A DNA stretch of 32,067 nucleotides, from assembly GCA_019113665.1 (NCBI GenBank), contig DXGW01000040.1, forward strand, positions 1 through 32,067, given 5' to 3'. Of this stretch, positions 8,486-10,550 are shown in pieces. Both the position numbers and the translations under genes were made by a program. Under the pieces are notes generated by a model. It saw only the letters and a program-made list of their open reading frames with translations. It ran no database searches and had not been told where the DNA came from. Positions within the stretch are counted from its first letter, which is position 1; every line of letters begins with the position of its first letter. Origin of the DNA: Candidatus Alistipes excrementipullorum (GTDB lineage Bacteria > Bacteroidota > Bacteroidia > Bacteroidales > Rikenellaceae).

Positions 8486-8517
8486 CGGAATAGTAAGTAA
8501 GATATAACTTTTTGCAG

Positions 8518-10104
8518 ATGAAGATAGCTCTTGCTCAATTGAATTATACCACCGGCGACATTCAGGGCAACGCCTCGAAGATCGTCGATGCGGTAGAGAA
8601 GGCCAAGGCCGTGCATGCGGACCTTGTAGTGTTCGCCGAACAGGCCGTCAGCGGTACACCCGCATTCGATTTGCTGCGGAAAACAACATTTATAGAGCTT
8701 TGCGACGAAGCTCTCGAAAACATAGCTTCACATTGCAAGGGCATTGCCGCCATCGTCGGCCTGCCGATACTTACGAATGACGGTACGATCAGCGCGGCTG
8801 CCGTGGTTGTCGACGGGAGGGTCGTGCGCTGCGTAGGCAAACAGTTCATCTCGGCACGCCGCGAGATGGGATATCTCGTGCCGTCGAAGGGATACGAGTA
8901 TGTCGAGATGTGCGGACACAAGATGGCCGTGGTCGTAGGCGACGACCTGAGCCATATCTATGACATGGACCGCGAGGCCGACATGATCGTCAGCATCAAT
9001 TCGCGCCGCTACGGCAAGGACGTACTCGCATACCGTTACGATTCGTTCCGCAAGACCGCTTTCGTCGAGGGCAAGACCCTCGTCTTCATAAACAACATCG
9101 GAGGCTCGGCCGAGATCGTCTATGACGGCACATCGTGCGTCGTGGACAAGAGCGGCGAGATTACCCTCATGATGAAGAGTTTCGAGGAGGATTTCGCCGT
9201 CTACGACACCGATGCCGAACACAAGGCTGTCGAGACGATGCCTTACTCGACCTGCAACGACCATACGCGCATGCTCTACCGCGCCGCCTGCCTCGGCCTG
9301 AAGGATTATTTCGCCAAGAGCGGGTACACGAAGGCCAGCATCGGACTTTCGGGCGGTATCGATTCGGCCGTGGTGGCATGCATCGCTGCCGATGCCCTCG
9401 GCCGTGAGAACGTGAAGGCGCTGCTCATGCCGTCGCAGTTCTCGTCTGACCATTCGGTCGAGGACGCCAAGGCTCTGGCCGAGAACCTCGGGATACAGTA
9501 CAGCGTGCTCCCCATTACCGAGGTCTACAAGTCGATAATGGATACGCTCAAGCCGATAACCGGAGGTACGGAGTTCGACTCCACCGAGGAGAACATTCAG
9601 TCGCGTATCCGTACCATCATGCTGATGGCCATGCAGAACAAGAGCGGATACGTCCTGCTCAACTCCTCGAACAAGAGCGAGAATGCCCTGGGCTTCTGTA
9701 CGCTGTATGGCGATACGGCCGGTGCGTTCAGCGTCACGGGCGACCTCTACAAGACCGAGATGTATGCCGTGGCACGTTACATCAACCGCGAATTCAACGA
9801 TGTGATCCCCGAAAACATATTGACCAAGGAGCCGTCGTCGGAACTCCACCCCAACCAGAAGGACAGCGACATACTGCCTCCTTACGACGTGGTGGACGCC
9901 ATTCTGGAACGCATGATCGAGGAGGGACAGCATCGCGAGGAGATCGTCAATGCCGGTTTCGACTCGGAGGTGGTCGAGAAGATCCACTCGATGATCATGC
10001 GCAACGAAAAGAAACGTTACCAGTTCCCGCCGGTATTGAGGTTGTCTTCATGCGCATTCAAGCATGAGCGCCTGATGCCTCTTATCAACAAGTACGGGTA
10101 TTAG
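8518..10104 (+). CDS. nadE: NAD+ synthase with N-terminal nitrilase-type (glutaminase-like) domain
   Basis: Synthetase P-loop SIGLSGGIDSAVVACIAADALG; LLNSSNKSENALGFCTLYGDTAGAFSVTGDLYKTEM; N-terminal MKIALAQLNYTTGDIQGN...LVVFAEQAVSG. The listed ORF starts at a TTG (8512); ATG 8518 is preferred. Confidence 0.92.
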   Translation: MKIALAQLNYTTGDIQGNASKIVDAVEKAKAVHADLVVFAEQAVSGTPAFDLLRKTTFIELCDEALENIASHCKGIAAIVGLPILTNDGTISAAAVVVDGRVVRCVGKQFISARREMGYLVPSKGYEYVEMCGHKMAVVVGDDLSHIYDMDREADMIVSINSRRYGKDVLAYRYDSFRKTAFVEGKTLVFINNIGGSAEIVYDGTSCVVDKSGEITLMMKSFEEDFAVYDTDAEHKAVETMPYSTCNDHTRMLYRAACLGLKDYFAKSGYTKASIGLSGGIDSAVVACIAADALGRENVKALLMPSQFSSDHSVEDAKALAENLGIQYSVLPITEVYKSIMDTLKPITGGTEFDSTEENIQSRIRTIMLMAMQNKSGYVLLNSSNKSENALGFCTLYGDTAGAFSVTGDLYKTEMYAVARYINREFNDVIPENILTKEPSSELHPNQKDSDILPPYDVVDAILERMIEEGQHREEIVNAGFDSEVVEKIHSMIMRNEKKRYQFPPVLRLSSCAFKHERLMPLINKYGY

Positions 10105-10127: not shown

Positions 10128-10550
10128 ATGAACATGAACGGACATATAGAACACATCGGACGCGTCGAGAATGTTGTCGGCCGGAGTGTCTTTGTCAAGA
10201 TAATTTCCCAAAGCGCCTGCGGAAGCTGCGAGGCCCGCAAGGCGTGCGGTTTGAGCGAATCGTCCGAAAAAATCATAGAAGTGGAAACCTCGTCGGCATC
10301 GGAGTATGCCGTCGGTGACGAGGTCATGGTCTCGGTGCGCCGCAGGGTCGGCCTGATAGCCGTGGCCATAGCCTATGTCGCCCCGCTGGTCGTGCTTGTC
10401 GCCGTGCTCGCAGGCGCCGAAGCCTTCGGCGTGAGCGAACGCAAGGCCGCACTGGCTTCGCTGTGCGGCGTGGCGGTCTATTATCTGCTGCTGTGGCTCT
10501 TCAGGGAGAGAATCTCGGACAGGGTGAATTTTATTATTCATAAAATATAG
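10128..10550 (+). CDS. rseC: SoxR-reducing system protein RseC family
   Basis: GRVENVVGRSVFVKIISQSACGSCEARKACG, two C-terminal TM segments; immediately upstream of rnfB. Confidence 0.88.
   Translation: MNMNGHIEHIGRVENVVGRSVFVKIISQSACGSCEARKACGLSESSEKIIEVETSSASEYAVGDEVMVSVRRRVGLIAVAIAYVAPLVVLVAVLAGAEAFGVSERKAALASLCGVAVYYLLLWLFRERISDRVNFIIHKI

Follow-up and report, generated by a model that had tools for sequence, protein, structure and literature searches.

Rikenellaceae encode a fused NAD synthetase whose nitrilase-type domain lacks the catalytic cysteine and which is predicted to use free ammonia

The window, i.e. the whole stretch of 32,067 nucleotides from Candidatus Alistipes excrementipullorum that we analysed (contig DXGW01000040.1), carries a nadE gene followed by an rseC-like gene and an rnf operon. 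The relevant features are the following:

8518..10104, + strand: nadE, fused nitrilase-type and synthetase NAD synthetase with a predicted inactive glutaminase, 528 aa from the ATG at 8518
8518..9240, + strand: putative pseudo-glutaminase domain (C-N hydrolase fold), Pfam PF00795 at residues 2-232
8638..8640, + strand: Glu41 (GAA), at the Glu position of the triad; 97% of the Rikenellaceae family have Glu here
8839..8841, + strand: Lys108 (AAA), triad Lys position, Lys in 91% of the family and otherwise Arg
8848..8877, + strand: degenerate loop after the Lys (5KHA LPNYGVFDEKRYF), region of the tunnel-gating YRE loop; consensus lost, alignment gapped
8938..8940, + strand: Gly141 (GGC), at the position of the nucleophilic Cys by alignment to 5KHA
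9271..10101, + strand: NAD synthetase domain (adenylating, PP-loop), Pfam PF02540 at residues 254-501, 236 bits
9349-9366, + strand: SGGIDS motif of NadE, intact
10027..10101, + strand: C-terminal loop expected to dock the synthetase on the nitrilase-type domain, retained
10128..10550, + strand: rseC-like gene, the first after nadE, Pfam RseC_MucC at 94.6 bits
10554..15672, + strand: rnf operon with rnfB, rnfC, rnfD, an FMN-binding rnfG-like gene and two Rnf-Nqr membrane subunits

The nadE reading frame starts at 8512 or 8518 and ends at 10104 (+ strand), and it encodes a fused NAD synthetase of type F in full length. It matched the NCBIfam model PRK13981 (NAD+ synthase), which represents the fused, dimeric type, over residues 1-526 of 528 with 529.7 bits (cut-off 479) and contains the synthetase domain with the SGGIDS P-loop, while the Pfam CN_hydrolase match was weak (34.6 bits compared to a cut-off of 23.2). 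A scan of the window against Rfam gave no match, and a promoter and terminator scan upstream of nadE gave no site on the coding strand. The full-length AlphaFold2 model was confident, with a mean pLDDT of 90.9 and a pTM of 0.91, and a Foldseek search with this model retrieved 5kha_A as top PDB match, with the fused enzymes 4F4H and 3N05 also among the best. The closest solved relatives are the glutamine-dependent enzymes of A. baumannii (5KHA) and B. thailandensis (4F4H). The window NadE agrees with them in length and in the order of its domains, is 35% identical along its entire length, and shares the predicted fold, the synthetase site and the C-terminal docking loop. Unlike these enzymes, it has neither the Cys nor the CEDxW motif, and its pocket and gating loop are degenerate.

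In the alignment to 5KHA, the segment 'LICEDIWS' of the A. baumannii enzyme pairs with 'VVVGDDLSH' of the window NadE, which places Gly141 at the position of the catalytic Cys. The original prediction, according to which Glu41 and Lys108 are kept and Gly141 (GGC, 8938-8940) replaces the nucleophile, was confirmed by this alignment as well as by that of the family. For the latter, 68 alignable Rikenellaceae NadE sequences from about 20 genera, 41-95% identical, were compared: the Cys column contained Gly in 66 and Asn in two of them, and Cys in none (0/68), while CED(L/I)W was present in 150 homologues from outside the family, drawn from further families of Bacteroidales as well as from other orders and phyla. 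Since all 68 orthologues carry Gly or Asn where the 150 outside homologues carry Cys, a sequencing error or a mutation private to this genome, either of which a Cys in the orthologues would have suggested, is ruled out.

The loss is not confined to the nucleophile. Cys-intact homologues share 47 columns of the N-terminal domain with a conservation of at least 90%; Rikenellaceae have lost 23 of these, including C155, W159 (the Trp of CEDxW), Y58 and N103, and also L122-P123, Y125, F128, R132, F134, S181 and P182 (all 5KHA numbering); much of the segment L122-F134, which corresponds to the YRE-type loop, is thereby gone. In characterised enzymes, this loop couples the two active sites and gates the tunnel between them (PMC6946656). 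What remains, apart from Glu41 and Lys108, consists largely of positions that belong to the fold, such as Gly, Asn, Asp and Phe. As regards the features expected of an enzyme of EC 6.3.5.1, the window NadE therefore has an incomplete Glu-Lys-Cys triad, with Glu41 and Lys108 in place and Gly141 instead of Cys, and a glutamine pocket and YRE-type loop from which Tyr58, Trp159, Ser181-Pro182 and the loop consensus have been lost (5KHA numbering). The synthetase domain, described as intact from its SGGIDS motif beforehand, proved to be so also at the level of the family, as 67 of its 85 strongly conserved columns are kept and the remainder show mostly mild changes.

In spite of the loss of its catalytic residues, the pseudo-glutaminase domain is under purifying selection (dN/dS of about 0.15) and is not junk. 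The mean dN/dS over 96 Alistipes-group pairs (Nei-Gojobori) was 0.155 for the N-terminal and 0.108 for the synthetase domain, both rough values because many pairs are close to synonymous saturation. Low dN/dS, family-wide conservation and the lack of internal stops rule out a sequencing error or a pseudogene. The earlier description of the domain as a relic holds only with the reservation that selection maintains it. The C-terminal loop, through which the synthetase is docked to the glutaminase domain (PMC3376133), is present in all two-domain forms and absent from the single-domain proteins L190 and L193.

We counted all genes with an NAD_synthase domain in 31 Rikenellaceae genomes. The Cys-less NadE was the only NAD synthetase found in 14, many of them near-complete, namely G006, G026, G020, G036, G118, G013, G027, G007, G021, G009, G017, G025, G034 and G047; the other NAD_synthase matches of these genomes scored 20-38 bits and were attributed, on size and score only, to ORFs of other PP-loop enzymes. 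NadA, and with it the de novo route to NaAD, was detected in 13 of the 14; the exception, G118, carries a NAPRTase-family gene. When 13 of these genomes were tested for salvage, PncB/NadV was not found in 12 and PnuC not in 10. Having NadA, a sole NadE and, in most cases, neither PncB/NadV nor PnuC, these bacteria must amidate NaAD by means of the Cys-less NadE, which has to be a working NAD synthetase. As such a synthetase has no glutaminase of its own, the donor is most simply ammonia; fused NAD synthetases accept free ammonia in vitro (PMC6946656), and ammonia is the physiological donor for a typical single-domain NAD synthetase (PMC3376133). In G057 (C1:1669491-1670387), the NadA match fell into two pieces within one frame of 324 aa, with profile positions 154-225 unmatched.

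The genome of the window encodes a second NadE of the large type, about 645 aa long and with an intact CEDLW motif (G000:C28:16175-18091, L205). This type was found above cut-off in 80 of 150 Rikenellaceae genomes, and in genus g20 and a single g9 genome its place is taken by an additional single-domain NadE. In the genus of the window, the second, Cys-intact NadE can presumably provide glutamine-dependent synthesis, and the organism may thus have two routes, with the Cys-less NadE using ammonia and the large NadE using glutamine. Since such a second enzyme occurs in most Alistipes-group genomes, including that of the window, the Cys-less gene could be auxiliary there. A second glutamine-dependent copy is, however, insufficient as a simple cause of the loss, because many genomes without the large NadE keep only the Cys-less gene; the same applies outside Rikenellaceae, where 13 genomes have a Cys-less two-domain form and no other NadE. 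Three Rikenellaceae NadE proteins of about 465-475 aa, two of 474 aa and one of about 468 aa, lack the middle of the nitrilase-type domain (L206 and L062 of g8, L207 of g14) and are the only NadE of their genomes (G027, G007 and G013). The Cys-less NadE sequences L054 and L055 of g20 are very divergent; as the sampled g20 genomes also have a single-domain NadE, constraint on the Cys-less protein has possibly been relaxed in this genus.

The gene order behind nadE is conserved: rnfB follows closely downstream in each of the 30 Alistipes-group loci that were examined, and L112, which is more distant, shows the same arrangement. This association of NAD synthesis with a ferredoxin:NAD+ oxidoreductase is suggestive, and it may be a passive linkage.

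The best explanation of these data, to which we assign a probability of about 0.88, is that the window NadE is a NAD synthetase that uses free ammonia, as enzymes of EC 6.3.1.5 do, and is fused to a pseudo-glutaminase scaffold. The enzyme would adenylate NaAD with ATP, and the intermediate would then be attacked by free ammonia from solution. The N-terminal nitrilase-type domain would no longer hydrolyse glutamine, having lost the nucleophile, oxyanion and pocket residues and the tunnel-gating loop, and would be kept as a folded scaffold docked on the synthetase, with a role perhaps in stability or oligomer assembly. We infer both the donor and the scaffold role; the family-wide loss, the degenerate pocket and gating loop, the intact synthetase domain and the genomes that make NAD de novo with a sole NadE strongly support the original prediction of a dead fused domain in an ammonia-dependent enzyme, and the Cys-less NadE almost certainly depends on ammonia.

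A counterpoint is that the triad Glu and Lys are almost always kept although they are useless without the Cys, so that a role in binding a ligand is conceivable. The pseudo-glutaminase could accordingly be an allosteric regulatory domain sensing, for example, glutamine, ammonia or, via the neighbouring Rnf, the redox state. The conservation of the fold together with Glu and Lys, the purifying selection on the domain and the conserved nadE-rnf linkage would fit such a function, but the very pocket that would bind glutamine has degenerated and is variable, and several lineages have dropped large parts or all of the domain while keeping only that NadE, which argues for a dispensable scaffold. We therefore regard a regulatory domain as unlikely, and hold as equally doubtful the broader proposal of a regulatory repurposing, possibly coupling NAD supply to the Rnf ferredoxin:NAD+ oxidoreductase, combined with a repeated reversal to ammonia in Bacteroidales up to domain loss. 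Use of glutamine by another route is less probable still. Two-subunit NAD synthetases of type C/R exist (PMC3376133), and the presence of one to three other CN_hydrolase genes in most genomes examined leaves some scope for ammonia delivery in trans by a separate nitrilase-type subunit that hydrolyses glutamine, either docked or undocked. This is improbable, however, as the fused pseudo-domain already fills the docking face, the remaining CN_hydrolase ORFs are about as long as ordinary stand-alone nitrilase-like (250-310 aa) or Lnt-like (500-590 aa) proteins, and there is no additional gene beside nadE, where rseC-rnf comes next. Even less credible is a replacement nucleophile, for which the original prediction had proposed Cys132 of VEMCGHK and for which Cys62 and Cys73, both more than 90% conserved in the Rikenellaceae family, might also be considered. 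Cys132 does not belong to the Cys residues that the family conserves, Cys62 and Cys73 occur equally in about half of the Cys-intact homologues and are hence ancestral, and not only the Cys but also the Trp of CEDxW, the loop and the residues of the pocket have been lost; we therefore rejected these candidates.

With respect to known NAD synthetases, the window NadE resembles the single-domain ammonia-dependent enzymes (H. pylori 1XNG, NadE of E. coli and Salmonella) in its synthetase fold and in the expected free-ammonia chemistry. Unlike these, it retains a complete, folded and presumably inactive nitrilase-type domain plus docking loop, and it originates from fused enzymes and not from the single-domain branch. 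Having a glutaminase domain and an extended C-terminal loop, it does not belong to the single-domain type N (De Ingeniis et al. 2012), which the domain-less proteins L190 and L193 do match; judged by sequence similarity, these two go back to fused enzymes. The nearest laboratory analogue is the engineered C176A variant of M. tuberculosis NadE (3SDB, 3SEQ, 3SEZ and 3SZG), likewise a fused NAD synthetase without the Cys, which differs in being a point mutant with an otherwise intact pocket and a member of the octameric subfamily of about 680 aa. In the window NadE, the Cys was lost naturally and the pocket has decayed with it, and the Cys-less forms can be regarded as natural counterparts of the C176A mutant.

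A search of the literature on fused NadE without the Cys and on NadE of Alistipes returned nothing relevant; NAD synthetases as a kind of enzyme are known, and the Cys-less fused variant appears to be undescribed in the literature searched. Fused NAD synthetases are regarded as glutamine-dependent: the reference survey of the family gives glutamine as the donor of every type F enzyme that had been characterised, and deems it unlikely that the fused form is lost or split (PMC3376133). In Rikenellaceae, the fused form seems to have decayed back to ammonia use across a whole lineage of gut bacteria, and where automatic annotations or metabolic models deduce glutamine dependence from the fused domain, they are probably in error for this family.

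Outside Rikenellaceae, the Cys was kept in the genomes sampled from beyond Bacteroidales, and other families of this order showed a range of replacements. The Cys position is occupied by Gly in L090, L211/L238, L218, L222 and L225, by Ser in L139 and L243, and, in sequences from rumen and other Bacteroidales, by Leu in L196/L197 and by Tyr in L149, L156 and L180, the last three of which also have the triad Glu changed to Ala. The CEDxW-type motif is deleted in L096/L119/L241, and the N-terminal domain is strongly degenerate in L194/L195. L190-L193 (263-284 aa) have no glutaminase domain at all; their synthetase shares about 48-51% identity with that of the window, and they apparently go back to a fused ancestor from which the entire domain was lost. 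Besides the 13 genomes relying on Cys-less two-domain forms, four non-Rikenellaceae genomes have the domain-less form and no other NadE, and NadA was found in 12 of these 17. The stages encountered range from single Cys loss through a degenerate pocket and an eroded domain to a missing domain, and allow tests of when and why an amidotransferase abandons glutamine, be it in an ammonia-rich anaerobic habitat or in the presence of a second glutamine-using copy. In G240, a stand-alone nitrilase-type protein of 252 aa that resembles the NadE N-terminal domain and a single-domain NadE are encoded on different contigs (L199 and L200), and these two may form a type R pair.

As to the number of losses, parsimony on the careful tree requires eight changes (7-9 in bootstraps); none of the 200 bootstrap trees requires only one, and the starred branches force at least three. 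AU tests of one clade for all Cys-less sequences gave p values of 0.745 (poor quick tree) and 0.123, so that a single clade was not rejected. A single origin of all Cys-less Bacteroidales forms is thus compatible with the AU test, while the bootstrap trees need more than one. For individual sequences, one clade with Rikenellaceae was rejected for L218 (p = 0.002), not rejected for L225 (p = 0.594), and gave p = 0.038 for both together. These results suggest at least two statistically secure independent losses in Bacteroidales, and about eight by parsimony.
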